From Magnetospirillum sp. ME-1 (GTDB lineage Bacteria > Pseudomonadota > Alphaproteobacteria > Rhodospirillales > Magnetospirillaceae): a stretch of 64,000 nt of DNA. The translations under genes and the position numbers were made by a program. The stretch covers positions 1-64,000 of the forward strand of contig NZ_CP015848.1 in NCBI RefSeq assembly GCF_002105535.1. Reading direction: 5' to 3'. A model generated the notes under the pieces. It did not search any database. It was not told the origin of the DNA and saw only the letters and a list, made by a program, of their open reading frames with translations. This document shows, in pieces, positions 3,790 through 24,734 of the stretch (positions within the stretch are counted from its first letter, which is position 1; the number at the start of each line of letters is the position of its first letter).

Positions 3790-4006
3790 CCCCCCCCTCC
3801 TTCTCAATACTCATTCAATTACCGACGAATTGAGATGCATGTTTTGAGAGACAGTTTTGAGATAATACCACCTCCGTTAATCACGCAAAAGACCACGACA
3901 CAAATAAATTCTCATAAACGAACGTTTTTGCGAGTCCCGTGTACATGCACATCAGTCGCCAGTGCGAACAGATAAATACCTGCGCACGAAGCCGAGGAGA
4001 AATGTG
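3790..4006. promoter_or_regulatory. Divergent intergenic region with possible recombinase subsites
   Basis: Between the recombinase and the rightward 4007 gene. It holds an inverted repeat TCAATT (3815-3820) / AATTGA (3828-3833) and a direct repeat GTTTTGAGA (3841-3849, 3854-3862). Resolvase genes often have their res sites directly upstream, so these are candidates for res subsites or operators. The spacing has not been matched to a known res architecture. Confidence 0.3.
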
Positions 4007-6292: not shown

Positions 6293-6700
6293 TCAGGCCT
6301 TGGCAGCAAGCTCAGCGAAATCGTGCCGCTCCATCATTGAGGAGACTGCGAATCCCGCCACCAACCCCCAGAATGCTGCCCCGATGTTTAATAGGCTGAT
6401 GTCGGCAACCGTCACCAGCAAGCTGATCAAAGCGCCTAAGGTGAATTTACCGGTACCGAACGAGGAGATGAACGAACCATGCAGCACCCTGAGCATGGCA
6501 AGACCTCCCAGCATCATGATGTATTCCTTGGGCGTAGCCAGCATCAATCCGGTGAAGGTGGACGCAAAGACGCCGAACAACACGCCCAGCAAGCCGAATG
6601 CCAGGGCGGCGGTATGGTGCCGATGCAACTCTCCCGACGAGATCAGCAGGGCGTTGGTGGGACCGGTCAGGGATGGTCGCCTATTGCCCTCCTGCGGCAA
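6293..6700 (-). pseudogene. BenE-type benzoate transporter, C-terminal fragment
   Basis: 135 codons matching only the last third of BenE-family membrane transporters: TAALAFGLLGVLFGVFAST, then PKEYIMMLGGLAMLRVLHG, TLGALISLLVTVADISLLN and IGAAFWGLVAGF. Full-length BenE proteins are about 390 aa with about 12 membrane helices, so the N-terminal two thirds are missing. Its 5' end overlaps the 3' end of the exported-protein gene by 20 bp, which suggests a recombination junction at the end of the operon. It is probably not functional. Confidence 0.6.
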
Positions 6701-6983
6701 TTTTCAATCGGGTGATCGCCATTTCTAATTCTGCGGCGATCTTACGACGTAGGTCGGAAGCCTTGGCCTCCTTCAACCGTCGCAGAGAGCCCTCAGCCTC
6801 GTTCAATTCCTGCACGGCCACTGTGGCAGACTGGGTTGCTAAACGCAGCTTGACCGACGAGATCTCCGCAGCCTTGCCATCTTCATAAGCCTTGTCGATG
6901 GGGCCGCTCTGGGCCAGGGCTATTGATGCCGGGGACAGCATGGCCGCCACCATCATCACCATCAGGGTTTGCTTGATCTTCAT
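6681..6983 (-). CDS. Small exported protein at the end of the secretion-like operon
   Basis: 100 aa from the ATG at 6983, preceded by AAGGAGATCGAC. A signal peptide (MKIKQTLMVMMVAAMLSPAS then IALAQ) is followed by a long helix (AVQELNEAEGSLRRLKEAKA). It begins 26 bp after the PqqD-M50-HlyD gene and is probably co-transcribed. It is likely a periplasmic helical accessory; no family is known to me. Confidence 0.7.
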   Translation of the reverse strand: MKIKQTLMVMMVAAMLSPASIALAQSGPIDKAYEDGKAAEISSVKLRLATQSATVAVQELNEAEGSLRRLKEAKASDLRRKIAAELEMAITRLKIAAGGQ

Positions 6984-7009
6984 GTCGATCTCCTTCACTG
7001 GGTTGATGA

Positions 7010-9115
7010 TTATGCGCCCCACTCCCGGACCAGCACCACCAGGGCCGAGCGGGCGGCGCGGCCAATCAGGCTTTGGCCCTGGCCGCTGATCTGGACATGG
7101 CCGATCAGCTTGAGGTTGGGGGCCGTGCCATCCAGACGGATGGTAACGCGGAAGAAGCTTCCCTGGGGCACCAGAATCTGGCCCGATACCCGCACGGGGA
7201 TGTCGCCGCCATGGAGCGAGGCCAGGGCCGGATCGGTCAGCACCTTGATCGGATTACGGTCGATGGCCAGCACCGTGCCGGTCATACCGACATGGTCGAG
7301 GCCGTGAGGGATGAAACGGGCGGTGTCGCCCGGCTTGATCCTTTCCAGGTCATCCTCGGCCACATAGGCGGTGGCGATGGTCGAACCATCAGCCCGGATC
7401 AGGCCCAATTGCTGCTTGGGCGACAGCCAAGCGCCGGGCTTCAGATCCGGCAGTGGATCAAGGAAGATCCCGGCATGGGGCGAGGTAATGGTCAGGCGTT
7501 CGGCCTCGGCATCCAGGGCCGCCTTCTCGGAGCCAAGCCGCGACAACTCCTCGGTCAGGGCCGACATCCGTTCGCGGCCGAAGGGATCGAGCTTGACCGC
7601 CTCCAACTCGGCGGATTTTCCCGCCAGCTTGGCGGCGGTGATGGCACGCCTTGAATCGATATCGGGGGCGGTGAAGGCCAGCAACTTTGTTCCCGCCGCC
7701 ACATGCTGGCCGCGCTCGACCAGCACCGCCTCCAACCGGGCCGGAGCAGGCAGGAATAGCGGCGCCACAATCTCGGCGGCGACCGAGGCCGGAGCCTCGA
7801 TGCGGGTCCGCCACGGGATCACCGCGACCACCAAGGCAATGCCAATTCCCAGCAACGGTTGCTTCCAGCGAGAGTTCTTGAAAATGCCGTCGCGGCGCTT
7901 GGCCCATTCTTTGACCTCGTTCCAGATGGGCAGGAACACGAACCAGCCGATCTCGACGGCAAACAGGAGAACGCCCACCGCCTTGATGAAGAAATGGTAG
8001 ACCAGGGCGGCGATGCCGAGGAACAACACCAGCCGGTAAACCCAAACCGCCATCGCAAAGACGACCATGGCCCGCTGGCGGCCTGGGTTCATGGCTTCCG
8101 GCGGTGGCTCGCCCAGATCGAACAACACTTCCCGGAGCCACCACTTTGCCATGGAGAAGGAACGTGGATGCAGGTTGGGCAGTTCCAGAGCGTCCATGGC
8201 CAGGAAGTAGCCATCGAAGCGCATGAACGGACTGAGATTGATGGCCAGCGACGACACCCAGGTGAAGGCGGCCAGCACAAACACCGCTTGGCGCATGCCA
8301 CCATCGGGCAGGAAAGCCCACAGCAGCGTGGCCCAGGCCGCCACGGAGAGTTCGGCCATGATCCCCGCCGCCCCGACCAGCAGCCTTTGCCGCCGTGACG
8401 CCAGGGTCCAGGTCTCGTTGACGTCGGTATACAGCACCGGCCACATCACCAGGAATGCCACCCCCATGGTCGGCACCCGGCAACCGAACCGCTTGGCGGT
8501 CAGGCCGTGGGCCAGTTCGTGGATCACCTTCACAAATGACAAGGCGATGCCGTAGCTGACCATGCCGCTGACCGAGAGGGTATCGACCAAGGTGGCGGTG
8601 AAGACCTCCCATTGCCGCACCACCAGCATCAACCCGAGCAGCAAGGCCCCCAAGGTGGTCCAACGAAACCACTGGCTGCCCAGCCAGGACACCAGCGGCA
8701 GAAGGCCCCCGAGGAAGCGATCCGGCCGCGCCAGCGGAATGCGGAAGAACAGGTAATGGTGTAGCAGCCAGTTGAAGATGGAATGCTTCTCGGCCGCCGC
8801 CTGCTCGGCCAGACGAGCCGTGTCGGCATGGCTGTTGGCTTGGGTCAGTTGGTTGCCATGCAGGAACTTGGCGACGTCCATCACCTCATCGTCGGCCATG
8901 TCGATGGTGGTCTCCGCCCGCACCATCTCGGCCACCTCACCGGCGGTGCCACCCCAACGGCTCAGCGCCTCGAAGGCGGCCCAGCCGATGCGGAAATAGC
9001 GGTTCCTGACCGGGTCGCGGATGGTCCAGGTCGGGGAACCGTCAAGGGAGGCCGGACCAGGATGGAGCGACAGCTCGTCGCGTAAGGCGGGCAAGGGCAT
9101 GACGGCGGCGTCCAT
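7010..9115 (-). CDS. PqqD-like / M50 metalloprotease / HlyD fusion membrane protein
   Basis: 701 aa. Residues about 28-95 resemble the PqqD peptide-chaperone fold. A multi-pass membrane domain carries HELAH at about 199-203 (zinc ligands and catalytic Glu of M50 site-2 proteases) and the second M50 signature NLSPFMRFDGYF with Asp301. After the last membrane helix (about 425-445) comes a periplasmic HlyD/biotinyl-lipoyl region with a coiled-coil insert (ELEAVKLDPFGRERMSALTE). Such fusions are known as M50-type HlyD adaptors (YydH/PhlB-like). It is adjacent to the GAF-HlyD gene (1-bp gap). Substrate is unknown; cleavage or escort of the two DUF4347 exoproteins is an inference from context. Confidence 0.85.
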   Translation of the reverse strand: MDAAVMPLPALRDELSLHPGPASLDGSPTWTIRDPVRNRYFRIGWAAFEALSRWGGTAGEVAEMVRAETTIDMADDEVMDVAKFLHGNQLTQANSHADTARLAEQAAAEKHSIFNWLLHHYLFFRIPLARPDRFLGGLLPLVSWLGSQWFRWTTLGALLLGLMLVVRQWEVFTATLVDTLSVSGMVSYGIALSFVKVIHELAHGLTAKRFGCRVPTMGVAFLVMWPVLYTDVNETWTLASRRQRLLVGAAGIMAELSVAAWATLLWAFLPDGGMRQAVFVLAAFTWVSSLAINLSPFMRFDGYFLAMDALELPNLHPRSFSMAKWWLREVLFDLGEPPPEAMNPGRQRAMVVFAMAVWVYRLVLFLGIAALVYHFFIKAVGVLLFAVEIGWFVFLPIWNEVKEWAKRRDGIFKNSRWKQPLLGIGIALVVAVIPWRTRIEAPASVAAEIVAPLFLPAPARLEAVLVERGQHVAAGTKLLAFTAPDIDSRRAITAAKLAGKSAELEAVKLDPFGRERMSALTEELSRLGSEKAALDAEAERLTITSPHAGIFLDPLPDLKPGAWLSPKQQLGLIRADGSTIATAYVAEDDLERIKPGDTARFIPHGLDHVGMTGTVLAIDRNPIKVLTDPALASLHGGDIPVRVSGQILVPQGSFFRVTIRLDGTAPNLKLIGHVQISGQGQSLIGRAARSALVVLVREWGA

Positions 9116-9116
9116 G

Positions 9117-10427
9117 TCATAGCCCTACGACATTGCGCACGACCGCCAAGGGGCGCCGCGCCAGCCAGTAAATGAGCGCCACCCGATGACCATCGAGCCG
9201 GGCGGTGCCCTTCAATCCCAGCCGGGGTCCCGTCTCGCCCTGGGCCAGTTCGGCGCGCACCCGATGGCCCAGGGTGCCATCGGGCTGGGGGATGGCTTCA
9301 TAGGTGACATAAAGCAGCTTGGCCGATACCGGCGACAGCGGATCGGCATTGAGGAACAGGCTGACCGGGCCGCCCCTCTCCAACTCGATGACATCGGCAG
9401 GCGCCAGCCAGGCTTCCACTTCGACATCGTTGGGCGATGCCACCGCCAGCACCTTCTCGCCCACCGTCACCGGGCGGCCCTGCCATTCGGCGGGATCGTC
9501 CAGAACGGCGACACCGGCACGCGGCGCCTTGACCTGGGAGCGGGCCATCAGGTCTTCCAATTGCGCCGCCTCGGCGCTCCGCTCCTCGATGCGGGCGCGG
9601 ATGATGGCAAGCTGCCCCTTGGCCTTGGGGTCGAAGAAGGCCTGCTGGGTGGCCTGATCCAGCTCGGCCTGGGCAGTGGACAGCGCCTTTTTGGCCACTT
9701 CCAGCTTGCCGGTGAGCGTGGTGCGGTCCAGTTCGAACAAGATATCGCCCTCGGCCACCGCCTGGTTGGGCCGCACATGCACCCGTTCGATGACACCTTC
9801 CATGGGCGAGCGGATCACCGCCGGGTCATGGGCCACCACTTCCGCCGGGGCCAGCACCGAAAGCCGCACCGGAAACAGCAGGGCCAGCACGATTCCCGCC
9901 GTCAGCTTGAGACGGTAGCGGGGGATGGATGTGATCTTCCGCTTCCATTCGGTCAAGGGCGCGGGCCGGTGCAGCACCGCCCAGGCATGGCCGTAGAAAT
10001 CCGAGGCGCGGGTCAAGAGCGCCACGTCCTGCTCGCCCCAGTCCTCGTCACGGGCCAGCAGAAGGGTGCCAAGCCGCTTTCCTTCCCGGTCCTTCAGCGG
10101 CAGCAGCAGGGCGCAAGGCGGCAGCCATTCCGACCACTCCGCCCCATCGGCCCCCTCCAGATCGGCGGGACCGGCTTGGCGCACTTCGTCGGAAGCCAAG
10201 CGTTTGAACACCCGCTCCAGCCACAGAGTAAACGGCGCACCGGTCTCGATTCCGGCGACACCGGATACCGCCTTCAAGCCCTCGCCCTCGATGAACAGCG
10301 CCGCCTGGCGATAGGCCGCCAAGGCCCGGCTGTCGTTGACCATGACGAAGCCCAGTTCGGTGGAGTTGGCGGCCTTGCGGGCGTGTTCTTCCAGCCCCAG
10401 CAGGGTGATGAGCGGGTTGTCGCTCAT
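9117..10427 (-). CDS. HlyD-family periplasmic adaptor with N-terminal GAF-like domain
   Basis: 436 aa. Residues 1-160 form a cytoplasmic GAF-like sensor domain (LGFVMVNDSRALAAYRQAAL then FIEGEGLKAVSG). A membrane helix near 175-192 (LKLTAGIVLALLFPVRLSVL) leads to a HlyD barrel-sandwich/lipoyl region (VIRSPMEGVIERVHVRPNQA) with an alpha-hairpin and beta-barrel. HlyD proteins connect inner-membrane exporters to TolC. The GAF domain suggests a small-molecule input. It lies in the operon between another adaptor (13-bp gap) and the M50-HlyD fusion. Confidence 0.85.
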   Translation of the reverse strand: MSDNPLITLLGLEEHARKAANSTELGFVMVNDSRALAAYRQAALFIEGEGLKAVSGVAGIETGAPFTLWLERVFKRLASDEVRQAGPADLEGADGAEWSEWLPPCALLLPLKDREGKRLGTLLLARDEDWGEQDVALLTRASDFYGHAWAVLHRPAPLTEWKRKITSIPRYRLKLTAGIVLALLFPVRLSVLAPAEVVAHDPAVIRSPMEGVIERVHVRPNQAVAEGDILFELDRTTLTGKLEVAKKALSTAQAELDQATQQAFFDPKAKGQLAIIRARIEERSAEAAQLEDLMARSQVKAPRAGVAVLDDPAEWQGRPVTVGEKVLAVASPNDVEVEAWLAPADVIELERGGPVSLFLNADPLSPVSAKLLYVTYEAIPQPDGTLGHRVRAELAQGETGPRLGLKGTARLDGHRVALIYWLARRPLAVVRNVVGL

Positions 10428-10440
10428 GGCCCGATATCAA

Positions 10441-11184
10441 TCATGGCTGGGGCATCTGAACCCGCCCGGTCATGCCGGCGATTAGTTCGGGATAGTCACC
10501 CCGCACCTCGGCCACCACCTTGACCGAGTGGCTGACGGCATCGACCTTGGCGCCGACACGGGCGATCTTGGCGGGATAGACCTTTTTGACCTCGTCCACT
10601 GCCACCTGGACCACCAGGCCAGGCTTGAGGTTGCGCACCCAGCCGGACGGCACGATGAATTCGGCTTCCAGGGTCGAGTCGTCCAGGATGTCGAGGATCG
10701 GCTGACCGGCCTGAACATATTGATGGGCGCGGGCCTTCTGCTCCACCACTCGGCCGGAAAACGGCGCATTGATGCCGCATTTGGTGGTGACGGCGCGAGC
10801 CGAGTTGAGCTTGGCCTGGGCCACGGCGGCGTCGGAGGCCGATTTCTCGGTCTCCAGCGTACCGGCGGAGTTCAATTCCAGTAGGCGCTTATGCACAGAT
10901 TTGGACTTCTCCGCCGCGCCCAGCACCGCCTGGGCCTCATCCAGCTGCGCCCGCTGGATCACGCAGTCGAAGGCGACCAGTTGCTGGCCCTCCTTGAAGC
11001 GGTCACCGTCCTTGACCGTGATGCGGTCGATCTTGCCGGGCAGTTCCGCCGAGAGGGTGGTGAACTGCACCGCCACCAGTTGGACCGGAATCACCGGCTC
11101 CTGTGCCGCCGCCCCGAAAGACAGCAGGCACAGGGCCGAGACCGCCCATCCCAGGCGGATTGGAGAAAATGGAACGGTGATCAT
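10441..11184 (-). CDS. RND/HlyD-type membrane fusion protein
   Basis: 247 aa. A signal peptide (RLGWAVSALCLLSFGAAAQ) is followed by a barrel-sandwich segment (LSAELPGKIDRITVKDGDRF), an alpha-helical hairpin (QLDEAQAVLGAAEKSKSVHK) and the second lipoyl half (INAPFSGRVVEQKARAHQYV). It is short for the family, with a minimal beta-barrel. The start at 11184 overlaps the stop of the 75-aa gene by one base, which implies translational coupling. It is the second of three adaptor-type proteins in the operon, counting the M50 fusion. Confidence 0.85.
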   Translation of the reverse strand: MITVPFSPIRLGWAVSALCLLSFGAAAQEPVIPVQLVAVQFTTLSAELPGKIDRITVKDGDRFKEGQQLVAFDCVIQRAQLDEAQAVLGAAEKSKSVHKRLLELNSAGTLETEKSASDAAVAQAKLNSARAVTTKCGINAPFSGRVVEQKARAHQYVQAGQPILDILDDSTLEAEFIVPSGWVRNLKPGLVVQVAVDEVKKVYPAKIARVGAKVDAVSHSVKVVAEVRGDYPELIAGMTGRVQMPQP

Positions 11185-11411
11185 CACGGCAGTATCCCCA
11201 AAGCGGCAAAACAGTCGGGATCGCGGAGAACCGATTCCGCCACCGTCATCCGTCGACCGGTGTTGATATCCACCAGCCGGGCATGGTGCGGCAGGCCGGG
11301 GGGCTGGAAGATCTCCTCGACCGTCCAGACCGATCCCCACAACCCGACCTTCTCGAAGCGATTGCCAGGCTCCAGGGCGGTATTGGGTTTGCGCAGCCCC
11401 AGCATGGTCAT
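11184..11411 (-). CDS. Small cytoplasmic hypothetical protein, 75 aa
   Basis: The ATG at 11411 overlaps the stop of the giant exoprotein gene in an ATGA, and its own stop overlaps the next start. This tight coupling supports a real gene. The sequence (KPNTALEPGNRFEKVGLWGS, with VDINTGRRMTVAESVLRDPD) has no membrane segment or known domain. It could be an assembly or export accessory of the operon. Confidence 0.6.
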   Translation of the reverse strand: MTMLGLRKPNTALEPGNRFEKVGLWGSVWTVEEIFQPPGLPHHARLVDINTGRRMTVAESVLRDPDCFAALGILP

Positions 11412-14400
11412 GCCCACCGCGCCAGACTGGCCAGGGCCGCGTGGCGGCTGGCCTGCTTGAGTTGTTGGGTGAAGGCCAGCTTGCCCACCGGCTTGTCGCG
11501 GTGGTGATAGCCGGTCTTCGCGGGAGCGGGCACTGGCGGAGACTTCTCGCCCACGCTGATGCGCACGGTGGCGATGGCTTCCCGGCCATCCTGGTCTCGG
11601 GCAATGACACGCACCAGCACCACCCCCTCGAACCCGGCAGGCGGCTTGCCGGTGAAGGCGCCGGTCTTGGGATTGAAGGCCAGCCAGGACGGCAGGGCCT
11701 GTCCATCCTGCTGGGCGGCGGTGAGGTTCACCACCGCATCGGGGCGGGTATGGGCGAAAGTGTCCGAGGGAACCGCAAAGCTGAAACCAGCGGAGGTTTC
11801 CTGGACCTGAGCCATTGGCCGCACCGCCACCAACGCCTCGCCACCCATGGCCGAGCGCTGAGCTTCCGCGATCACGGGAACCCGGAAGGCTCCATCCGAC
11901 GTGGCTGCCGTCAGCTGGCCCGTTGCGGTCAAGGTGATGACGGCGGGAGCCTGCACCACATTGACCGCTGCGACGGCAACAGGAGCCACCGTGCCCCTGT
12001 CAGACACCTGGGGTGTCAAGACCGGAGCGCTTGGCGGTGGTTGGCCTCCGTCCCGCGATGGTGCCGCTGAATCACGAACGATGGTCACGACCGGTACAGA
12101 GGGAGCTGCTGGCGGGATCGGCGTGGGGACAACAACGGGAGCGGGATCAGCTTTTGGAGGCGGTGGCGGAGCCGGCGGTGGCTGCGTCTTGGTCTCGGTC
12201 ATGGTGATCGTGGCCAAGGCGCTCTTAGCCCCGCCGATATAGGCGGTTCCGTCATCGGCGACCTGCACTGTCACCGTATCGGTGCCGAAGCCGGCAGCAG
12301 TGTATTTCAACGTCCCCAGAGCTGTGTTGACCTGTGCCTTGGTGCCGTGGAAGGTCACTGTGCTGCTGTCGTTGGCGCCAACATCGCCAGTGATGCCGTC
12401 CAGATGTACCTTGCCCGCCGCATTGCTGCTGGACACCGTGACGGTATAGGTGCCGTTGGTATTGTCGGCGATCGATACACCGGTCAGTGTGCGCTGCGCC
12501 ACCGCATCGCTGGTCACGTTGGACCCGCCCGGCACGCTGATGCTGGGCGTATCATTGGCCGCCACCGTCACCGTCGAGGCCAGTGACACGGTGGCGGTAT
12601 CGGTGCCGCCATTGGCGGTGCCGCCGGTGTCCTTGATCTGGGTCAGCGTTACCACGCGATTGCCCACCGTGGCGTTGTTGTTGGTGTTTTCATATTGCAG
12701 GCCGTTGATCAGAGCGTTGGCGACGCTGCCAGTCATGTTGCCCGCCTTGGTCAAGGTCACCGTGGCCGTCGTCCCCGTCACCGACACCGAATACGCTATG
12801 GAATTGCCGCCCGTGCTGGTGCCGCTGGTGCCATTGGTCAACTGAACGGTGCTGCCGTCGATCTTCAGCTTTTCCGCCGTCCCGTCCGCCAAGCCCGATA
12901 CCGTCAGGGTGATCTGGTTGATGCTCTGGCTGGCCTCGACCACACTGGCGGCTGCGCCGCTGAACAGGGCGGCGGTGAAGGTGCTGGGATGATCCACCGT
13001 TGGCGTGGTGACGGTGGCAGTCAGGGTCGGCGCGTTGTTGACCGCATTGACCGTCACATCGGAATGCGCCGTCAGCGTGGTGCTGTCCGTGCCACCGGCC
13101 CCGGTGCCGCCATCATCCTTGATCTGGGTCAGCGTCACCACGCGGGTGGCCGCGATGGGGTCGTTGCTGGTGTTCTTATAGGTCAGGCCGTCCACCAGGC
13201 TTTGGGCCTGCGCCGTGGTGAAATTCCCCGCCTTGGTGATGGTCACCGTGGCCGTGCCGCCCGACAGCGTCACGTTCGAGATGAACGAATTGCCGGCACT
13301 GGTCACGCTGGTGGCATTGGTCAAGGCCACGTCGGTGCCGTCGATGGTGACGATTTCATTCGCTCCATCGGTGACGTTGCTGATGGTGAACTTGATCTGC
13401 TGGATCGTCTGCGGGCTGACATCGGCCCCGCCTAGGGACACCGCGCTGCCGCTGAACAGGCTGGCCGCTGTGCCGCCCTCGGTGAAACTCGGCGTGCTGG
13501 TGGTCGCCGTCAGGGTCGGGGCGTGGTTCAGGGGCAGAACCGACACTGAAACTGCGCTGGTTAGGGTCTTGCTGTCCACGCCCCCGTTGGACGTGCCGCC
13601 ATCATCCTGGATGCCGGTCAGGGTGATGGTGCGGTTGCTGGCGGTCAGGTTGCTGCCCGAATCCTTGTATTTCAGGCCGTCGATCAGGGAATTGACCTGG
13701 GCACCGGTCAAATTTCCCGCCTTGGTCAAGGTCACCGTGGCGGTACTGCCCGTCACCGACACCGCATAGCCGATGGAATTGGTGGCGCTGGTGCCGGTGG
13801 TAGCATTGGTCAGAGTCACATCGGTGCCGTCCACCACCAGGATTTCGCTGGCGCCGTCGGCCAGACCGGACACGGTCAAGGTGATCTGTTGGATCTTCTG
13901 CGCCGCTTCCACCGGGCTGGCCGCCGTGCCGCTGAACAGGCTGATCGCCGCCTGCGATTCGGTGTAGCTGACCGAGCTGCCCGGTGTGGTGGTGAAGGTG
14001 GGCTGGGTATTGACCGCCGTGATGCTCACATCGGAGTGATCCGTCGGCGTCGCCGTATCCACCCCGCCGCCAGCGGTGCCGCCGCTGTCTTGGACGCCGG
14101 TCAGGGTAAAGACCCGGTTCGCCACGGTGGGATCGTTGCTGCTGTTCTTGTACTTCAGTCCATCGACCAGGGTTTGCGCCTGGGCGGTGGTGTAATTGCC
14201 GCTCTTGGTGACCGTCACCGTCTTGGTGGCGCCAACCCCGCTGACCGCGATGACAAAGGCGTTGGCCGTCGTGGTGGTGCTGCCCACCGTCAGGGCCACG
14301 TCCTGGCCGTCGATCGTGATGATTTCCGAAGCCCCATCGGTCACGTTACCGACGGTGAAGGTCAGCGTCTTGATGGATTGGGCGCTATTATCGTTGGTGC

Positions 14401-17400: not shown

Positions 17401-18184
17401 ATGATTTGTAGGTGCTGTAATCCCAATTATCCAACGCAGTCAGATCCGATGCGCTGGGCGCGATGCCGTTAATGCTGCCGTTCAGCGAGGTCCATCCCAG
17501 AGCTCCCACCCAATCCCCGGCATTGAAGGATGTCGCGGTGATATCGCCGGTTGTATAATCCAGAGACCACGATCCTCCTTCTGCCACATTTCCCACCAAC
17601 CCAGTGGAGGCGGCCACATCAGCCCCGGTGGCCAGGGAGAGGTCTCTGATGAATTTCTTTCCCTCGGCCGCTTGGGCCAAGTCGCAGCTATACAACAGGA
17701 AATCCCCACCGGCGTTCAGGGCCGAGCCGATTTCCGCCAATTCCGCCTGTGTCACCGGATTGGACAGCGAGGCATCGATCAGCGTGTTACTACCGAGCTG
17801 AACCAGTCCTTTGCCGCCATGAGTCAAGATTGAGATGGAATCGTAGCCGCCATGAGTCTCGGCCCACGCCGCCATCTGGGCTAGACCGTCCTGTCGGCCG
17901 TCGAGCTCCTCGATCTCGATACCCGGCTTCACCGCCGCTTCCAGGGTCTTGTAGCCGACCACCGAGGTATCGACGAACACCACCTCCTTTTTGCCGCTAT
18001 TCTGGGCCGGATCGGCAGCCTTGACCTCCACCGGGGCTGGAGCGTCTGGAATCAGCGCCTTCGCCGCAGGATCGGGGGCGGCATGGGCAGCGTCCGCCAC
18101 TGCCGCCCCGTCGAACATCCAGCGCGGTTCCAGGGCCATGAGTCCCAGATCCATCTTCCGACGCTTACGCTTGATGTGACCCAT
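11408..18184 (-). CDS. Giant DUF4347 repetitive exoprotein (2258 aa)
   Basis: The N-terminus has the motif LGLMALEPRWMFDGAA, followed by a DUF4347 domain at about residues 65-225 (VVFVDTSVVGYKTLEAAVKP then, further on, LAEIGSALNAGGDFLLYSCD). About 230-640 is a propeller-like region. Then come cadherin/VCBS-like domains, including six tandem repeats of about 160 aa. A Pro-rich linker and a putative Ig domain (SWLAFNPKTGAFTGKPP) end in a tail KLAFTQQLKQASRHAALASL. This is the architecture of large secreted or surface adhesins exported by type I-like systems. No Sec signal peptide is seen. The TolC, adaptor and M50 genes flank it. Confidence 0.85.
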   Translation of the reverse strand: MGHIKRKRRKMDLGLMALEPRWMFDGAAVADAAHAAPDPAAKALIPDAPAPVEVKAADPAQNSGKKEVVFVDTSVVGYKTLEAAVKPGIEIEELDGRQDGLAQMAAWAETHGGYDSISILTHGGKGLVQLGSNTLIDASLSNPVTQAELAEIGSALNAGGDFLLYSCDLAQAAEGKKFIRDLSLATGADVAASTGLVGNVAEGGSWSLDYTTGDITATSFNAGDWVGALGWTSLNGSINGIAPSASDLTALDNWDYSTYKSSMYGYYSSLQFDAAGNLYALFDIETYRDNSVSQTLVVEKYNGTSWVMLGSGFDSAGGASLAVNPLNSTVYVEYQKQDANYLTTLYVDVYNSGGGSWSNVGFSTFGSFSSGLSGSDYPNGGTIEFSADGTLYLAYTAPTGQAVNGTNNVIVAKYNGSGQSWTTITPNGGITNNNPYFMADQQFAITSNGSLFVGAYERVTPGNTQKYTIYSYSQGSGWATILSEATVAAGTSQKIVTGPSNSLYLLDQSTGTKHIKYFDGTTFTDLGLPPDQVLGGNVLCVGSDQSLYYPVDTGSNGPVSYYKYSGGSWSQVATGPTPGAGQAFKAADPFVVGPDGKLYIVVTNSVTPNPGYDVTIGQTVVESLLTNAAPVIGGAVASQAVNDTGAVTPFSAVTISDGENDNVTVTVALDTATKGTFTAASLTASGFVSNNNGTYTLSARSPANAQAAIRQLVFSPAANRVTAGSTETTTFTITAADANSSPTNTTTTVIATSINDAPVLADTVLTMTGQNEDCGAPSGAVGTAISALAGGISDADASAAKGIAVIGADTANGTWWYSVNNGGSWSALGAVTTSNARLIASTNGRMYFQPNADWNGTISPAITLRAWDGTSGANGTLADPGAGGGTTAFSTASDTAALTITAVNDPPTLSTTTATPSFTEGGSAVSLFSGTAIGINSGDSGQAIKTLTLTVSNVADGTAGTAEVLVVDGSDVALNNGSTVASTTGNGFAVSVSRTGTTSTVTITKAGNFTTTQAQSLVDGLQYKNTSSDPSTGNTRVVTLTSVQDDGGTANGGIDTTILTAHSDVSLSGVNTAPTLTATATTPTYVEGNAAVSLFSGAAVSAVEAAQKIQQITLSVAGLADGANEILKVDGTDVVLTDATSVTSTANSFISTVSVTGGTATVTITKAGNFTGAQAQALVNGLTYRDTVSGIVVGTRTVTLTQIKDDGGTSPGVDTTTLSTASTVTVSPVNHVPTLSTTTSTPGFTEGGSAVSLFSGTAIGIGTNDNSAQSIKTLTFTVGNVTDGASEIITIDGQDVALTVGSTTTTANAFVIAVSGVGATKTVTVTKSGNYTTAQAQTLVDGLKYKNSSNDPTVANRVFTLTGVQDSGGTAGGGVDTATPTDHSDVSITAVNTQPTFTTTPGSSVSYTESQAAISLFSGTAASPVEAAQKIQQITLTVSGLADGASEILVVDGTDVTLTNATTGTSATNSIGYAVSVTGSTATVTLTKAGNLTGAQVNSLIDGLKYKDSGSNLTASNRTITLTGIQDDGGTSNGGVDSKTLTSAVSVSVLPLNHAPTLTATTSTPSFTEGGTAASLFSGSAVSLGGADVSPQTIQQIKFTISNVTDGANEIVTIDGTDVALTNATSVTSAGNSFISNVTLSGGTATVTITKAGNFTTAQAQSLVDGLTYKNTSNDPIAATRVVTLTQIKDDGGTGAGGTDSTTLTAHSDVTVNAVNNAPTLTATVTTPTVDHPSTFTAALFSGAAASVVEASQSINQITLTVSGLADGTAEKLKIDGSTVQLTNGTSGTSTGGNSIAYSVSVTGTTATVTLTKAGNMTGSVANALINGLQYENTNNNATVGNRVVTLTQIKDTGGTANGGTDTATVSLASTVTVAANDTPSISVPGGSNVTSDAVAQRTLTGVSIADNTNGTYTVTVSSSNAAGKVHLDGITGDVGANDSSTVTFHGTKAQVNTALGTLKYTAAGFGTDTVTVQVADDGTAYIGGAKSALATITMTETKTQPPPAPPPPPKADPAPVVVPTPIPPAAPSVPVVTIVRDSAAPSRDGGQPPPSAPVLTPQVSDRGTVAPVAVAAVNVVQAPAVITLTATGQLTAATSDGAFRVPVIAEAQRSAMGGEALVAVRPMAQVQETSAGFSFAVPSDTFAHTRPDAVVNLTAAQQDGQALPSWLAFNPKTGAFTGKPPAGFEGVVLVRVIARDQDGREAIATVRISVGEKSPPVPAPAKTGYHHRDKPVGKLAFTQQLKQASRHAALASLARWA
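12560..15470 (-). repeat. Six tandem ~490-bp repeats in the giant exoprotein gene
   Basis: A block encoding SLFSG recurs near 15396, 14894, 14418, 13928, 13448 and 12956, which gives a period of about 476-502 bp. Each unit runs from an xxPTL boundary through VTITKAGN..TxAQAQSLVDGLxY and ends at a DDGGT block. Units 1, 3 and 5 share TEGGSAVSLFSGTAIG-like starts; units 2, 4 and 6 share VEAAQKIQQITL. The order is therefore (AB)x3. Confidence 0.85.
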
Positions 18185-18213
18185 AATTCACCGTTCAACA
18201 GGGCTGTTCACGC

Positions 18214-19953
18214 TTATTCGCCGACCCGATCGGCAAGGCGGCTGATCTTGCCGCCCAGCCACGCCAGACCGTCGCCCAGCGAGTCCTTACGTTCGGGATC
18301 GGGAGCGGAAACCGGCGCGGCCTCGGCCGGCTTGGCGAGGCCGTTGGAGATGAACGTCCCCAGCCAGGCCATGGCATCCTGATGCTCAGGCTTAGGGGCT
18401 GGGACATCGGGCGTCACCGTCTCGATCACGGCGGGAGCGGCGACCGGCACGGCATCGGCTTTCACCACTGGCGGCATGGCCAGCACGATGGCACCCGACA
18501 GGCCGTCCAGGGACTGCGATGCAACCCGCTCGGGCACCGGATCGGCGCCGAGGGTGGATTGCAGCTTGCCATAGGCCGACTGCATCTGGGCATAGGTCTG
18601 GAAGCGGCGAAGCTCGGCGGCGATGGCCGAGGTTTCGGTGCTGATGCGCTCGATCTCGTTCTGGGTGCCGCCGCGCTGCTGATTGCCAGAGGCTTCGGCC
18701 AGACGGCTCTCGATACCCCACAGCTTGTCTGCCCGCTCGAACTGCTTGGCGGCGCTGGCGAACTGATGCGACACCACATGGACCTGGGCCAGCACCGCCA
18801 TGCGCAGCGCGATACGCTTGGCATCGGCCACCTTCTCGGCGCTATCGGCATGGGCCAGGCGATCGGGCGCTGCCAGCAGGTTGATCAGGTTCCAGGTAAC
18901 CTTGGTGCCGACCTCGTTCCAGCGGTTGTCCACCAGGAACGAGTTGGAATCATACTGGCGCGTGAACGACAAGGTGACGCCCGGCAGCAGCTTCAGGATC
19001 TCCTTGTGGGTGTCGTCGATGGCGATGCGGCTCTGATAATCCTGCTCGCGCAGATCGGGGTTGTTGATCAGCGCCGCTTCTTCCATCTGTTCGATGGGCA
19101 TGGTCCAGGCCGGGATGGTCATGCCGCCATTGGCGGGCACCTCCAGCTTGAAGTCGCTGCCCGGCGCCACGTTGATCAGGGCGGCCAGTTCAGCCTTGGC
19201 GGTGGTCAACTCCTGGTCGATGGCTTCAAGCTGGCGGATGCTTTCCAGCAGGGTCTTCTGGATACGTAAGGATTCGGTGGGGTTCTTCAGCTTTTCCGCT
19301 TCGACCCGCTCGGAATCTTTCAGCGCTCGTTCGGCATTGGCGATGATCTCGGTGACCTTCCCCTTCAGGGTCTGGGCGGCGGCGGCCCGCCAAAAGGTGA
19401 AGCGCACCTCCTGTACAAGGTTGGCCACCGTCTTGCGCCGCTTCTCGCCCGCGATCAAAGCGCGGTCGGCGTTCTGATGGGCGGTGAAGTAGCTGACGCC
19501 GAAATCCAGGATGTTCCAGGTCAGGCCGAGATCGTTGGTGATGGAGAACCGATCCGCCGAATAGCTGGGGTTCGAGGTGCTGGTGGTCTGGGTATAGAGG
19601 TCGCGCGATTTGGTGGCGTTGGGGGCCGAGCGCTCGGTATAGCCGGCATTGACCGCCAGCTTGGGCAGCAGGTCGAAGCGGTCGAGATCCAACTGCCCCA
19701 GAGCCAGGGCCTCGTCCATCATCTTGGCCCGCTTGTCCAGATTGTACTTCAGGACGCGGGCCACCGCGTCGGACAGGGTGAGCGGCTTGGCCATCACCTC
19801 CTGGCCGTCGAACATGGCGGAGCGGTCGGCTTTGGCACGCGCCGAAAACTCGTCCTGGGTGAACGGCGTCGGCGTCACGGCACAGGCCGACAGCAGGGCC
19901 ATGGTGGAAACGGCGGCCAGCAGGCGGGCCATGCGAGCGGAAACGATGGTCAT
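18214..19953 (-). CDS. TolC-family outer membrane efflux lipoprotein with extended C-terminus
   Basis: 579 aa. A lipoprotein signal (LLAAVSTMALLSAC) leads to a TolC/OEP domain with long helical hairpins (LTLSDAVARVLKYNLDKRAK; later EILKLLPGVTLSFTRQYDSN). The last ~130 residues are Pro/Ala-rich and contain two similar short blocks, DAMAWLGTFISNGLA and DGLAWLGGKISRLAD, beyond the normal OEP length. It would be the outer-membrane channel for the export system. It lies between the two DUF4347 exoprotein genes (18- and 29-bp gaps). Confidence 0.88.
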   Translation of the reverse strand: MTIVSARMARLLAAVSTMALLSACAVTPTPFTQDEFSARAKADRSAMFDGQEVMAKPLTLSDAVARVLKYNLDKRAKMMDEALALGQLDLDRFDLLPKLAVNAGYTERSAPNATKSRDLYTQTTSTSNPSYSADRFSITNDLGLTWNILDFGVSYFTAHQNADRALIAGEKRRKTVANLVQEVRFTFWRAAAAQTLKGKVTEIIANAERALKDSERVEAEKLKNPTESLRIQKTLLESIRQLEAIDQELTTAKAELAALINVAPGSDFKLEVPANGGMTIPAWTMPIEQMEEAALINNPDLREQDYQSRIAIDDTHKEILKLLPGVTLSFTRQYDSNSFLVDNRWNEVGTKVTWNLINLLAAPDRLAHADSAEKVADAKRIALRMAVLAQVHVVSHQFASAAKQFERADKLWGIESRLAEASGNQQRGGTQNEIERISTETSAIAAELRRFQTYAQMQSAYGKLQSTLGADPVPERVASQSLDGLSGAIVLAMPPVVKADAVPVAAPAVIETVTPDVPAPKPEHQDAMAWLGTFISNGLAKPAEAAPVSAPDPERKDSLGDGLAWLGGKISRLADRVGE

Positions 19954-19971
19954 GGTGGTGATCCCCTGGGG

Positions 19972-22947
19972 TCAGGAAAAGCGGATGGCAGCAAAGCGAG
20001 CGGCCAGCTTGAGTTGTTGGGTGAAGGCGATCTTGCCCGCCGCCGGCTTGTCGCGGAGGTGATGGCCCAGCTTGATGACGTTGCCGTCCCTGACGGCGCC
20101 GGACTTCTCCGGCAGGCCATTGATGCGGATGGTGATGGTGGCCTCCTGGCCCTTGTCGTCGCGGGCGATGACGCGAACCACCATGGTGCCCTTCATATCG
20201 GGTGGTGGCTGGCCGGTCAGGGTGCCGGAGCGCGAGTCGAAGTTCAGCCAGGACGGCAGCGGTTGACCGTTGACGCGGGCGGCGCTGAGCGTCACCACCG
20301 CATCCGAACGGGTATGGGCGAAGGCATCGGCCGGAAGGGCGATCCGCAATGGCCCATCGGCCAGCGGCGGCACCACGACCTCGGGACGCAGTGCGACCAG
20401 CCCCTCTACCGCAGGGCCGCCCTGGGTCGCGGTGACCACGGGCACCCGGAAGCCGCCATCGGCGGTCGGTGGCGTCAACTGCGAGGTCATGACGACCGGG
20501 ATTGCCGGCGGCGCGACCACGACCGGCGCAAGCGGAATCACCGACTTGGCGACTTCGCTGACCGCGACCTTCGGGGCATCGACAGATGGGGCGGCAATCG
20601 GTGATGAAATCGACGGCAGCGGGGAGAATACCGGCGGCGGCGCGGTATTGCGCACTACGGTCGACGGCTGATCGGTCACAGACGATTGCGGCACGGGTTG
20701 CGGCAAAGCCACCACCGGAGCAGGTGCGGGCGCAGGTGGCGGAGGGGAGTTCGTGGACGTGGTGGTGGTGGACGTGGCGCCACCACCACCTCCTCCTCCT
20801 CCTCCTCCGCCGCCGCCGCCGCCGCCGCCGCCAGCGATATAGGGCGTTCCGTCGGTGCCGAAGCCTTCGACAAAGCCGGAATTATACGAGAAATGGGTAA
20901 TGGACGTTCCGGAATTGGAGATCCCCGTAATGTTGGGCACTGTCGATCCAACCAGTGCGGAAATGCCGTTAACGTAGATCATGTCAGTGACATTGATCCG
21001 GTCGGTGCCCGTCCCGGTCTTGCCCCAGATGAAGGCGCCTGAAGAGTCCAGCTTATCGGCAAAAAAGCTGTACGCGCCCAGTCCGGTGATCGCCCCCGCC
21101 GGAGTACCGGCTGGATCGATGTTTATGTTGGAACTGTCGGTCATGCCGCCGACATAGAGATTGTTGTTGCCATCGGCGGTCACGGCGACGCCGTATCCCC
21201 CCATGTTCCCGGTCCCGCCGATGCTCTTGGCCCAGGAATAGCTGCCATCCGTGCCGCTGTACTTGGCCACGAAAATATTGTTGCCCGACCCGGCACTTGT
21301 CAGATTATGGGTGCCGGCGGGATCGAAATTTTTCGTGCCCGAGAAGATTCCCACCAGTACGACATCGCCATTGCCGTCCACGGCCATGGTGCCGTTATAC
21401 GAGGCCACGTTGGCGGCTGCCGTTACGGTTTTGAACCACTGGCTGGTGCCTGAGGTATTCAGCTTCTGAAGGAACACCCCGTCGTCCGCAGCAAGATTGG
21501 CGGCCCCGCCGGGTTGTGAATTTATGGTGTCGCCCGTGGTCGCTTTACCTACGACGTAGAAATTCGTTCCATCGGATTGGACGGAATAGACGTTCTGCTG
21601 GGTATAGGCCGTGGTATCGTCATACGCGTATCCCCAGGCGGTCGTTCCATCAGCATTCAGGCTGACAACATAGCCCGCCACTCCGCTATTGGAGTTGTCT
21701 TGCAGCGTGGTCCCGCCGAAGTTCGCTGATCCCGTGAGCTGCCCAACCAGAGCGATTTTCGTGCCTGCGGCCGCGACGCCGCAGTTCGAATCATTGGATG
21801 TGCCGCCAAAGGTCTTGTTCCAGACATAATTTCCGATTGAATCCAACTTGGTGACGAAGATGTCATTACCGCCTGCGGATACGGCATTGTGATTGGCTGA
21901 GGCGGGATCGAATTGGGCTGTTCCTGAAAAATTACCTGAAACGATCACATTGTCGCCGCTGTCCACCGCCACGCCCATGCCACTGCTCGTGGTTGTAGAG
22001 GTTGTGGCAGCAGCCACCGTCTTTGCCCACAGACAAGCGCCTGTGGCGTCATATTTGGCGATATAGCCGACACTTCTGTTGGTGGCAAAATTGTTCGCCA
22101 ATGTCAGGGCCTGCCCGCTGACAGTGAACGTTATCGAGCGTTTAAATGACCCAACAACGTAGATATCATTCTGCGAATCCACAGCACTGTCGTAGATGGT
22201 CACGTAAGGGTTGGCATCGCTGGGGTTGTCCACCACGATCTGAAACGGCGAAGGTGCAACCAAATTCCGTTCGAACGCGGCCAGGGCCGTGCGATTCAGT
22301 TGATTAGCCGCCACCGCGCCGGTGGCCTTTTCCAATGTCCAATCACCGTTGATACCGGTGAGGTCGTCGGACGCCGCCACGTCGGCCCCCGTCGCCGCTA
22401 CGAGATCTGCAATGAATTGCTGACCGTCATCGCCCTTGGCCACGTCGCAGCCATACAGCAACAGGTCACCACCGGCATTCAGGGCGTGGCCGATCTCGGC
22501 CAGTTCGGCCTGCACCACCGCATCGGCCAGCGATGCTTCGGTGATTGTATCGACGCCAATGTTCAGAGCCGCTTCATGTCCGTGAGACAGAATGGAAATG
22601 CAGTCATAGCCGGAATGGGTCTCGGCCCATTTGGCCATCTGGGCCAGGCCGCTCTGGCCGCCGTCGATCTCCTGGACCTCGACACCGGGCTTCACCGCCG
22701 CTTCCAGGGTCTGGTAATCGGCCACCGAGGTATCGACGAACACCACCTCCTTCTTGCCGCCATCCTGGGCGGGCTCGGCGGCGCGGACCTGCACCGGCGC
22801 CGGGGCGTCGGGGATCAGCGCCTTGGCCGCCGCGTCGGGGGCGGCATGGGCGGCATCGGCCATGGCTGCGCCGTCGAACATCCAGCGCGGCTCAAGGGCC
22901 ATCAGGCCGAGATTCGGGCGTTTGCGTCGGGAAGCAACAGAAGTCAT
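19972..22947 (-). CDS. DUF4347 exoprotein with SBBP-type repeats and poly-Gly linker (991 aa)
   Basis: Start at the ATG at 22947, 4 bp after the AraC stop. The N-terminus LGLMALEPRWMFDGAA and DUF4347 domain closely match the giant neighbour. The middle has SBBP-like beta-propeller repeats (SYSWAKSIGGTGNMGGYGVA and relatives, each of the form VDxxGDVVLVGxF). A run of about 19 Gly then a TS/Pro-rich linker leads to a putative Ig domain (LPSWLNFDSRSGTLTGQPP) and the tail GKIAFTQQLKLAARFAAIRF shared with the giant protein. It is probably a secreted or surface partner exported by the same machinery. Confidence 0.85.
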   Translation of the reverse strand: MTSVASRRKRPNLGLMALEPRWMFDGAAMADAAHAAPDAAAKALIPDAPAPVQVRAAEPAQDGGKKEVVFVDTSVADYQTLEAAVKPGVEVQEIDGGQSGLAQMAKWAETHSGYDCISILSHGHEAALNIGVDTITEASLADAVVQAELAEIGHALNAGGDLLLYGCDVAKGDDGQQFIADLVAATGADVAASDDLTGINGDWTLEKATGAVAANQLNRTALAAFERNLVAPSPFQIVVDNPSDANPYVTIYDSAVDSQNDIYVVGSFKRSITFTVSGQALTLANNFATNRSVGYIAKYDATGACLWAKTVAAATTSTTTSSGMGVAVDSGDNVIVSGNFSGTAQFDPASANHNAVSAGGNDIFVTKLDSIGNYVWNKTFGGTSNDSNCGVAAAGTKIALVGQLTGSANFGGTTLQDNSNSGVAGYVVSLNADGTTAWGYAYDDTTAYTQQNVYSVQSDGTNFYVVGKATTGDTINSQPGGAANLAADDGVFLQKLNTSGTSQWFKTVTAAANVASYNGTMAVDGNGDVVLVGIFSGTKNFDPAGTHNLTSAGSGNNIFVAKYSGTDGSYSWAKSIGGTGNMGGYGVAVTADGNNNLYVGGMTDSSNINIDPAGTPAGAITGLGAYSFFADKLDSSGAFIWGKTGTGTDRINVTDMIYVNGISALVGSTVPNITGISNSGTSITHFSYNSGFVEGFGTDGTPYIAGGGGGGGGGGGGGGGGGGATSTTTTSTNSPPPPAPAPAPVVALPQPVPQSSVTDQPSTVVRNTAPPPVFSPLPSISSPIAAPSVDAPKVAVSEVAKSVIPLAPVVVAPPAIPVVMTSQLTPPTADGGFRVPVVTATQGGPAVEGLVALRPEVVVPPLADGPLRIALPADAFAHTRSDAVVTLSAARVNGQPLPSWLNFDSRSGTLTGQPPPDMKGTMVVRVIARDDKGQEATITIRINGLPEKSGAVRDGNVIKLGHHLRDKPAAGKIAFTQQLKLAARFAAIRFS
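20779..20833. repeat. Trinucleotide tract encoding the poly-Gly linker
   Basis: A run of CAC/TCC/GCC triplets (Gly codons on the minus strand) within the 991-aa exoprotein gene. The triplet period would let slippage change linker length in frame. Confidence 0.8.
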
Positions 22948-22951
22948 GGCA

Positions 22952-23674
22952 TCAATCCTGATTGCGACTCGCCTGGAAGCGGGTCGGGGGCATGCCGAAA
23001 CGGCGGGTGAAGGCAGCGGAAAAGGTGGGGACGTGCGAATAGCCCAGCGAAAAGGCGATATCCTTGATGGAGGCGCCGCCATCCACCACTAGGTCGCGGG
23101 CGCGAACCAGCCGCCAGTCCACCAGCCATTCAAAGGCAGTCATGCCGAATACGGCGCGGAACTGGGCGTTCAGTTTGCGGGGCGGTACCCCCACCATGCG
23201 CGATATTTCGGCCATGGACGGGGGAGAGACCGGATCGGTCAACAGAATGTCGCGGACGGCGAAGGCGTGCCGCTGATCATCGCTCTCGTCCGAAGTCGAA
23301 ACCTCGTCCACCAGCAGTTCGATGACCTTGCTTTGGACATACAGATTGAAGGCCGACCCGCGGTAAGGCGTGCGGGAAAGGTCCTCGGCGACACGGCGCA
23401 CCAGGGCGGAATTGGCGATTTCCACCCGCTCGCACCCACCGGACAGCAGCCTTTCCAGGCTGGAGCCGTGACCGTTGCCATGCCCCAGCATGATGCGCAG
23501 CCGGGCGGGGGAAACACACGCCACCAAGGCGTAATCACCGCCCGTCTCCGCCAAGCGTCCATCGGAGACAGACAACTGGACCATGGCCTTCAGACGCTCT
23601 CTCCGGGCATGGGAGAGCGTCAGGATTACCTCCAATCCTTGGCCGACCTGGATATGTTGAATATCGCTTGGCAT
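22952..23674 (-). CDS. AraC-family regulator heading the exoprotein operon
   Basis: 240 aa. The C-terminal double HTH is complete: ISRMVGVPPRKLNAQFRAVF and IKDIAFSLGYSHVPTFSAAF followed by RRFGMPPTRFQ. The N-terminal sensor part is short and shows no known ligand domain. It ends 4 bp before the DUF4347 gene and runs the same way, so it is probably the first gene of the operon and may control it. It is related to the adjacent 321-aa regulator (shared RDLLLTD/RDILLTD and PYRG blocks). Confidence 0.88.
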   Translation of the reverse strand: MPSDIQHIQVGQGLEVILTLSHARRERLKAMVQLSVSDGRLAETGGDYALVACVSPARLRIMLGHGNGHGSSLERLLSGGCERVEIANSALVRRVAEDLSRTPYRGSAFNLYVQSKVIELLVDEVSTSDESDDQRHAFAVRDILLTDPVSPPSMAEISRMVGVPPRKLNAQFRAVFGMTAFEWLVDWRLVRARDLVVDGGASIKDIAFSLGYSHVPTFSAAFTRRFGMPPTRFQASRNQD

Positions 23675-23768: not shown

Positions 23769-24734
23769 TTAGGAGGGCGTGCCGGGAGCGTAATATACGC
23801 TCGCCCGCTCATCACGGAATCCGGCTGGCGGCACTCCGAAACGCTGGGCAAACGCCGCAGCAAAGGCGCTACGGTGAGAATATCCCAGCCGATAGGCGAT
23901 TTCCTTGATGGATAATTCGCCGACAGCCAGGAATTGGGCGGCCTGCGCCATTTTCTGGTCCAACAGCCATTGCTGTACCGTCATACCGAATTCGCGTCGG
24001 AACGCCTCGTTCAGGCGGCGGGGCGAAGTTCCCACCTGGCGGGCGACATCCATCAGATCCGGCGGAGAGGCGAGATCGGTCAGCAGCAGATCACGCGCCG
24101 CCAAAAGGCGGTGACGCTCCCGGCCCAGCACGCGCTCATCGCCGGAATCGCCCTCATCCATGAGATCGACCACCGCCGACAGCATTTCCAGAACCTTGCC
24201 CTGCAGGAAGAAACTCAAGGCATTCCCGCGATAAGGGGCGGCGCGAACATCTTGCACGATACGCCCCAAATGGGCCGTTCGAGCCGGGGTGAGGGCCAGC
24301 GTCTCGGGGCGATCATCCAGCATCCTGGCCAAGGGACGAGGGCAACGGGTTTCACCGAAGAAATCACGCAGCCGTTCCGGGGTCAGCGCCAAAGCGACAT
24401 GCTCGAAGCTGCCCCCTCCCGGCAGGGCTCGATAGAATGACGCGGGATGGCGGCAGATACCAACGCTGAACCGCTCCTCATCAGTCACAATGGGGGCGCT
24501 GATTCCAGGCCGGATACATTCGTCGCCACCCGCGAGAAACACCCGAATCCAGAGCTGGGTGTCATGGGGCATCACGACTTTCTTGTAGTTGACGTTCGGC
24601 ACCCCTTTGGCGAACACATGAAAGAAATCCGCCCCATCCCCCAAGGAATGATGGGCGAAGGTCTCCGGGTGGCGACGGATCACCGTTTCGCGCCCCACCT
24701 CCGGGGCATCAACCCAATGTTCGACGATCGACAT
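23769..24734 (-). CDS. AraC-family transcriptional regulator
   Basis: 321 aa. An N-terminal sensor domain is followed by a PYRGNALSFFLQGKVLEMLS linker and a C-terminal AraC HTH pair (VARQVGTSPRRLNEAFRREF; IKEIAYRLGYSHRSAFAAAF with QRFGVPPAGFR). It is a longer paralogue of the 240-aa regulator 95 bp downstream and belongs to the group with pyochelin-regulator-like layouts. Ligand unknown. It is divergent from the AraC gene at 25043. Confidence 0.88.
   Translation of the reverse strand: MSIVEHWVDAPEVGRETVIRRHPETFAHHSLGDGADFFHVFAKGVPNVNYKKVVMPHDTQLWIRVFLAGGDECIRPGISAPIVTDEERFSVGICRHPASFYRALPGGGSFEHVALALTPERLRDFFGETRCPRPLARMLDDRPETLALTPARTAHLGRIVQDVRAAPYRGNALSFFLQGKVLEMLSAVVDLMDEGDSGDERVLGRERHRLLAARDLLLTDLASPPDLMDVARQVGTSPRRLNEAFRREFGMTVQQWLLDQKMAQAAQFLAVGELSIKEIAYRLGYSHRSAFAAAFAQRFGVPPAGFRDERASVYYAPGTPS

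Follow-up and report, generated by a model that had tools for sequence, protein, structure and literature searches.

A conserved gene cluster of Magnetospirillum that probably encodes ABC-independent HlyD/TolC export of very large LEPR-tagged surface proteins

The window analysed in this study is a 64,000-nt stretch, bases 1-64000 of the complete 4.55-Mb genome of Magnetospirillum sp. ME-1 (NZ_CP015848.1). A run of genes on its minus strand, read from 23674 down to 6681, encodes in order an AraC-type regulator, a candidate cargo exoprotein (cargo 2), a TolC-type channel, a second candidate cargo (cargo 1), an HlyD-type adaptor, a protein combining a GAF-like domain, a transmembrane segment (TM) and an HlyD part (GAF-HlyD), a fusion of PqqD-like, M50 protease and HlyD parts (M50-HlyD), and a small protein. 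The features, in window positions, are as follows.

23769..24734, minus strand: AraC-type regulator, second copy upstream, which may belong to the operon (HTH_18 2.4e-23; position)
22952..23674, minus strand: AraC-type regulator, first gene of the run (HTH_18 1.2e-22)
19972..22947, minus strand: cargo 2, LEPR/DUF4347/He_PIG exoprotein; the reading frame is open to 23082, likely start 22947
22870..22896, minus strand: LEPRWMFDG box, N-terminal in cargo 2 (position checked)
22264..22746, minus strand: DUF4347 domain of cargo 2, with a His/Cys pair, caspase-like by inference
19975..20034, minus strand: C-terminal end of cargo 2 with FTQQL box (position checked)
18214..19953, minus strand: TolC-type outer-membrane channel with lipoprotein-like N-terminus and C-terminal extension (OEP 3.5e-24; sequence)
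11408..18184, minus strand: cargo 1, 2258-aa LEPR/DUF4347 repeat exoprotein
18107..18133, minus strand: LEPRWMFDG box, N-terminal in cargo 1 (position checked)
17528..17983, minus strand: DUF4347 domain of cargo 1
11411..11482, minus strand: C-terminal end of cargo 1 with FTQQL box (position checked)
10441..11184, minus strand: periplasmic HlyD-type adaptor with signal-peptide-like N-terminus, likely start 11184 (HlyD_3 2.6e-18, HlyD_D23 1.3e-14)
9117..10427, minus strand: GAF-like domain, one TM and HlyD adaptor (profile matches, N-terminus alignment)
7010..9115, minus strand: PqqD-like, M50 site-2 protease and HlyD fusion, the proposed inner-membrane core
8507..8521, minus strand: HELAH zinc motif of the M50 part (conservation; position checked)
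6681..6983, minus strand: small signal-peptide-like protein (occurs in near relatives)

The first-pass annotation had counted nine leftward genes with tiny gaps or overlaps. The span 6681-23674 holds eight, and nine are reached only if the AraC gene at 23769-24734 is included. Because cargo 2 probably starts at 22947, 4 nt past the AraC stop, the long overlap between these two genes vanishes, and because the HlyD gene probably starts at 11184 and not at 11706, a 223-nt gap lies behind cargo 1; the tight spacing stands for the remaining gaps, which measure 1 to 29 nt. Profile searches bore out most of the domain content that had been read from the letters, finding DUF4347 in both exoproteins (E 2.7e-43 and 1e-45), OEP in the TolC-type channel, M50 (E 3.3e-9) together with HlyD_3 (E 2.6e-5) in the 7010-9115 fusion, and HTH_18 in the AraC regulator. 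HlyD_3 was detected in three proteins, the M50 fusion included. One adaptor is itself a GAF-HlyD fusion, which had been missed. In this 9117-10427 protein a GAF-like N-terminal domain (PF01590, E 0.0048) precedes the TM and HlyD parts, and PF01590 was matched at E <= 0.1 by 9 of 29 aligned GAF-HlyD N-termini, at best with 5.9e-5.

Directly after the operon lies a 135-aa open reading frame (ORF; 6293-6700) that matches positions 281-376 of the 378 in the BenE benzoate transporter model; as only the end of the model is matched, it is probably a remnant. A serine resolvase/invertase gene near the operon end (3202-3807) may mark past mobility. Promoter and terminator scans gave matches below shuffled expectation, and a search for tandem repeats in the cargo DNA found a single CCG run and nothing else. 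The small signal-peptide-like gene was present in 9 of 81 loci, the window among them.

The absence of an ABC ATPase from the operon and the window was confirmed: PF00005 had 67 matches in the genome, none within 1-64000 and the nearest at 88837-89283. No RND or MFS Pfam match was found in the window's block either. A protein scan of genome contigs returned 113 M50-HlyD relatives, of which 80 were kept; among the resulting 81 loci, window included, the GAF part was present in 74, TolC in 67 and ABC ORFs in nine. Forty further regions, from other genomes and from this one, agreed with the arrangement, in which the cargo may stand upstream or downstream. From these 121 loci and 20 sister-type regions, described below, we obtained 140 M50-HlyD loci, many of them truncated where a contig or the fetched region stops. 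In 64 of the 140 the genes follow exactly the order TolC, HlyD, GAF-HlyD, M50-HlyD, and under a strict rule all four gene kinds stood in one run in 67 of 118 loci. When the homologous neighbourhoods were searched with a profile derived from eight of the Magnetospirillum genome's own ABC proteins, 17 of the 140 loci contained some ABC gene and in none did it lie between core genes; under the strict same-strand run rule, the run included an ABC gene in one of 118 loci (L162), where it lies upstream of the giant exoprotein. An ABC gene hidden in the operon is thus ruled out by the genome-wide PF00005 search and the 140-locus survey.

The loci with M50-HlyD come from Alpha-, Beta- and Gammaproteobacteria. 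Besides the operon described, the genome of the window has another complete module (L194), whose cargo likewise carries DUF4347, and all three DUF4347 proteins of this genome adjoin a complete module. Among 398 genomes of the phylum, DUF4347 was found in 95, full-length M50-HlyD in 89 and both in 75, so that M50-HlyD was present in 75 of 95 DUF4347 genomes compared with 14 of 303 others (Fisher p 2e-47, which ignores kinship). 'Full-length' here means a best E <= 1e-70, a threshold picked after the results had been viewed, and loci are undercounted, as two candidates were scored in nearly every genome. Counted by genus, which takes account of kinship, the figures are 37 of 46 genera with DUF4347 versus 13 of 167; the genome and genus lists were compiled by hand. 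Twenty of the 95 DUF4347 genomes have no module (for three of them, completeness is below 80%), and 14 module genomes have no DUF4347. A chance neighbourhood is rejected by the gene order and the co-occurrence, the genus version included.

The module is also carried by plasmids. M50-HlyD was matched at E <= 1e-20 in 65 of 72,556 plasmid records, in 61 over >= 80% of its length, and the plasmids include those of Azospirillum, E. coli and Citrobacter. In E. coli, DNA of the cluster was found in 24 of 5426 complete genomes (22 over >= 80%), with 21 of 25 places on plasmids. There, a 4458-aa Ig-like protein precedes TolC, two adaptors and M50-HlyD; it bears LESRQLFDGAA (LESR, not LEPR), the C-terminal sequence PSLAAQV and, by eye, a DUF4347-like region.

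The missing pump might be encoded elsewhere. Under classical type I secretion, the cluster would contribute adaptors and TolC, an unlinked ABC pump would use the C-terminal box of the cargo and the M50 protease would only process it. A type I ABC protein scored over the curated cut-off in 53 of the 75 genomes with both module and DUF4347 (three families, 40, 20 and 18), the genome of the window has exporter-like ABC proteins below the cut-off (533.5 bits at 3531733 and 519.9 bits at 1545963), and the position of the cargo's C-terminal box fits a type I signal. However, 22 of the 75 genomes, the window's included, have no type I ABC over the cut-off, although a score below it does not mean absence. 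In one of these, G088 (95% complete, with full M50-HlyD and DUF4347), the matches to the three type I families reach only E 5.5e-38 to 4.3e-32. The 35.8-kb plasmid pMSR-1 of M. gryphiswaldense bears the module together with a cargo gene of 493 aa and lacks an ABC gene; on the circular E. coli plasmid NZ_CP104683.1, a single ABC gene over the cut-off lies about 20 kb away from the module. Three HlyD proteins would be odd for one pump, and in the sister clade a SecA-like ATPase takes the place of the ABC protein. Taking these data together, we consider an ABC pump acting in trans unlikely.

The candidate cargo proteins share terminal boxes. The N-terminal box L-E-x-R-x-[ML]-F-D was present in 52 of 77 candidates with a complete start versus 1 of 746 other ORFs, and the C-terminal box FxxQL in 56 of 76 versus 46 of 412; both patterns were written after inspection of the cargo sequences, and these enrichments are descriptive. 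By eye, the 25 N-terminal misses comprise ten LERR/LEKR variants, one LEPRLLFA, four DUF4347 proteins lacking the box and ten unrelated-looking or fragmentary sequences, while eight of the 20 C-termini that miss the box look unrelated; all misses were kept in the counts. A LEPR-XLL form has been named for a giant protein of Vibrio (PMC10868602). Two sister-type giants whose starts were read begin with LEPRVLLNAD and LEPRLLLSAD, and the LEPRxMFDGAA box and LEPR-XLL therefore look like one tag family. In Azospirillum argentinense Az39 (L260:2259-9723), one LEPR/DUF4347 cargo has possibly been annotated as two genes. A search for the cargo in phages gave no match.

Hydropathy bears on how the cargo would enter the envelope. 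Among cargo proteins bearing the box, read from the nearest upstream Met, the hydropathy peak of the N-terminus reached the mark of 1.8 or more in 10 of 66, compared with 71 of 86 HlyD, 56 of 59 TolC and 0 of 112 GAF-HlyD N-termini; the median peaks were 1.20 for cargo, 1.13 for GAF-HlyD, 2.08 for HlyD and 2.21 for TolC. The box-bearing cargo thus mostly appears to have no Sec-like signal, its N-termini being about as little hydrophobic as cytosolic ends.

In DUF4347, a His and a Cys are nearly invariant (H in 68 and C in 67 of 70 domain rows). Both are invariant in an alignment of 59 of 62 rows, and the three rows left out also carry them. A predicted model (pLDDT 91.5) was searched with Foldseek; its best match was 9qpe_G, itself a DUF4347 chain (4.3e-6), followed by caspases at 5e-4 and weaker (TM about 0.3) and dehydrogenases from 1.1e-3. 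A search of solved structures with the DUF4347 alignment gave six matches, 9qpe and five designed TIM barrels; the latter are discounted as relatives, the match spanning a 28-residue stretch only. The residue pair and the predicted fold suggest that DUF4347 may be caspase-like (clan CD), and one may guess that it cuts its own protein. In print, DUF4347 appears in a putative type VI toxin (PMC8262886) and in a table row (PMC12322963).

The 701-aa M50-HlyD product retains the marks of a site-2 protease. H199, E200, H203, D301 and G302 are invariant in 36 aligned sequences, HExxH is present in all 131 M50-HlyD proteins, and the distal DG motif in 127 of them (104 of 104 of the window's type and 23 of 27 of the sister type). 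The predicted structure (pLDDT 88.9) shows HlyD-type folds at the C-terminus and matches EmrA and MacA (E about 1.5e-13). The PqqD assignment holds in part: Pfam detects PqqD neither in the protein of the window nor in 25 relatives of the same type, isolated N-termini included, but hhalign aligns the window N-terminus to those of the sister clade (probability 96, E 4e-9), five of seven of which match PF05402 (PqqD). A third M50-HlyD copy in this genome (about 510169-511305) comprises the C-terminal half only, without the protease motif, and neither cargo nor TolC was found in the 17 kb around it; judged from its sequence, it is a decayed module.

The PqqD-M50 part also matches the daptide metalloprotease model NF041824 (7e-47, 160 bits, under the cut-off of 300), which raises a different reading, a cluster that matures and exports a peptide or RiPP-like product and whose neighbouring exoproteins are not substrates. 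The PqqD matches of the sister N-termini would fit it as well. However, the module usually stands next to giants, and genome-wide it co-occurs with the cargo family; in the blocks listing ORFs that were labelled or >= 100 aa, no small precursor peptide gene stands out. This reading is very improbable in our judgement.

In distant relatives, the gene after M50-HlyD encodes a SecA-like ATPase of about 670 aa. SecA_DEAD, SecA_PP_bind and SecA P-loop domains were found in nine of ten such proteins tested, the tenth (L191) being degenerate. Among 19 distant M50-HlyD loci unselected for SecA (E 1e-70 to 1e-100, G291 fragments left out, three loci on contigs under 8 kb), 14 carry a SecA-like gene, one a degenerate copy and four none; the regions L230-L249 were fetched for their SecA-like genes and stand outside this test. 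In a tree of 131 M50-HlyD proteins, the 25 SecA-adjacent tips, the degenerate one included, fall into one clade of 27 members (support 1.0), the sister clade referred to above. For the other 104, of the window's type, the search revealed no adjacent SecA-like gene, some of their loci being cut short. M50-HlyD is the neighbour in all 26 loci with a SecA-like gene; in L245, where a 281-aa ORF lies between the two, and in L246, where the ORF caller fused genes, adjacency was taken from coordinates. At least two SecA_PP_bind copies occur in 33 of 89 M50-HlyD genomes versus 1 of 309 others. The genome of the window has one SecA and no second SecA gene.

The profile of the SecA-like protein matches residues 14-603 of the 841-residue SecA chain 3iqy_A, and Pfam lists no wing/scaffold domain in the proteins tested. 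The part beyond the matched residues is presumably the one that pushes chains through SecY, and the SecA-like protein therefore probably lacks it. One named example is the operon on pMSC49a of Methylosinus sp. C49, with the order giant, DUF3467, adaptor, PqqD-M50, SecA-like, adaptor, TolC, in whose record the names 'PqqD family protein' and 'prepilin peptidase' are used; further named examples are found in Mesorhizobium ciceri R30 and Rhodobacteraceae M382. Several other observations were made at sister loci. In two of the named sister operons, the giant and the adaptors are separated by a small DUF3467 gene (L257:7395-7700, L258:4325-4645). A gene of about 690 aa stands beside SecA-containing modules (L230, L233-L239), in some with the start of a large exoprotein after it, and the one tested (L233) is a ShlB/FhaC-type two-partner transporter. 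The degenerate SecA-like protein (L191:12742-14694), which follows the M50-HlyD gene, lacks the usual ATPase motifs (48 bits).

A SecA paralogue is open to another interpretation, since SecA is the motor of a two-step pathway. The cargo would reach the periplasm by an unrelated route, probably Sec, and the cluster would provide only the outer-membrane step, surface attachment and proteolysis; soluble HlyD and TolC could act from the periplasm. However, 56 of 66 cargo N-termini stay under 1.8 and have no Sec-like hydrophobic stretch, and HlyD-type adaptors are normally coupled to an inner-membrane pump. We regard such a two-step route as distinctly unlikely.

The reading we favour, and think probable on the sequence evidence, is that the cluster encodes an ABC-independent HlyD/TolC export system dedicated to very large LEPR-tagged surface proteins, with export accompanied by leader processing as the most economical function we can infer. 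The earlier suggestion that the PqqD-M50-HlyD protein is the inner-membrane part of a non-canonical system is favoured by gene order, cargo co-occurrence and the plasmid clusters; it had left out the GAF domain and the SecA-like protein. The cargo would begin in the cytosol, with basic residues followed by the tag L-E-x-R-x-[ML]-F-D-G-A-A and with the FxxQL box at its end. PqqD-type domains bind leader peptides, and in the 701-aa inner-membrane protein the PqqD-like part would bind one of the cargo tags, after which the M50 protease may cut a leader or a membrane-held intermediate. The HlyD part of the M50 protein, GAF-HlyD and the soluble HlyD would form an adaptor ring docking on TolC, and ring and channel would lead the chain out. 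DUF4347, which stands beside the tag, may later cut the cargo itself.

The force would come from SecA. In the sister type, the motor is most likely the dedicated short paralogue; for the window's type, the housekeeping SecA is the most likely source, and that SecA drives it is put forward only tentatively. That these modules make up a secretion type of their own is a serious possibility that we would place short of probable. In such a system, a motor of the SecA family, which the sister type would have for itself and the window's type would borrow, would feed giants tagged with LEPR or LEPR-XLL through PqqD-M50-HlyD and GAF-HlyD into HlyD-TolC, and LEPR would serve as the entry tag.

No described export route for giant LEPR-type surface proteins, and no published description of this system, was found in the open-access literature, and the passages available of a review of tripartite pumps (PMC8277102) contain nothing on such a system. 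The present data link LEPR giants with a single conserved machine that has no ABC pump of the usual kind; in the sister clade, a SecA motor stands in its place. If this is true, Gram-negative bacteria would have an additional route across their envelope, in which a Sec motor is joined to type I outer-membrane plumbing, and the LEPR tag, DUF4347 and the SecA-like genes recorded as 'prepilin peptidase' or 'DEAD/DEAH box helicase' would gain a meaning. With its two complete modules, the genome of the window is a place to test this.

Among known systems, type I secretion (HlyB/HlyD/TolC), to which the LapB/LapC/LapE adhesin exporters also belong, shares with the cluster a TolC-type channel, an HlyD adaptor, giant repeat cargo and the lack, in most cargo, of a Sec-like signal, and on our reading the outer-membrane step would be alike. 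The cluster has no ABC pump, which is the defining test, and differs further in its PqqD-like/M50 and GAF parts fused to adaptors, its N-terminal LEPR tag and the SecA-like ATPase of the sister clade. The efflux pumps MacAB-TolC, AcrAB-TolC and EmrAB-TolC resemble it in adaptor and channel folds, whereas the window's block has no ABC, RND or MFS pump. Accessory Sec systems (SecA2, with or without SecY2) resemble the sister clade in having a second SecA linked to large exoproteins; here, however, the SecA is shortened, linked to HlyD and TolC genes, and absent from the window's type. The daptide and epipeptide M50 proteases (NF041824, NF058609) likewise combine a PqqD-like and an M50 part, but the proteins described here carry an HlyD fusion, have giant neighbours and score under both cut-offs. 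Finally, Tce1 of the P. aeruginosa type VI system (PDB 9qpe chain G) belongs to the same DUF4347 family and is the best fold match, whereas DUF4347 in our cluster forms part of giant exoproteins and stands beside the LEPR tag.
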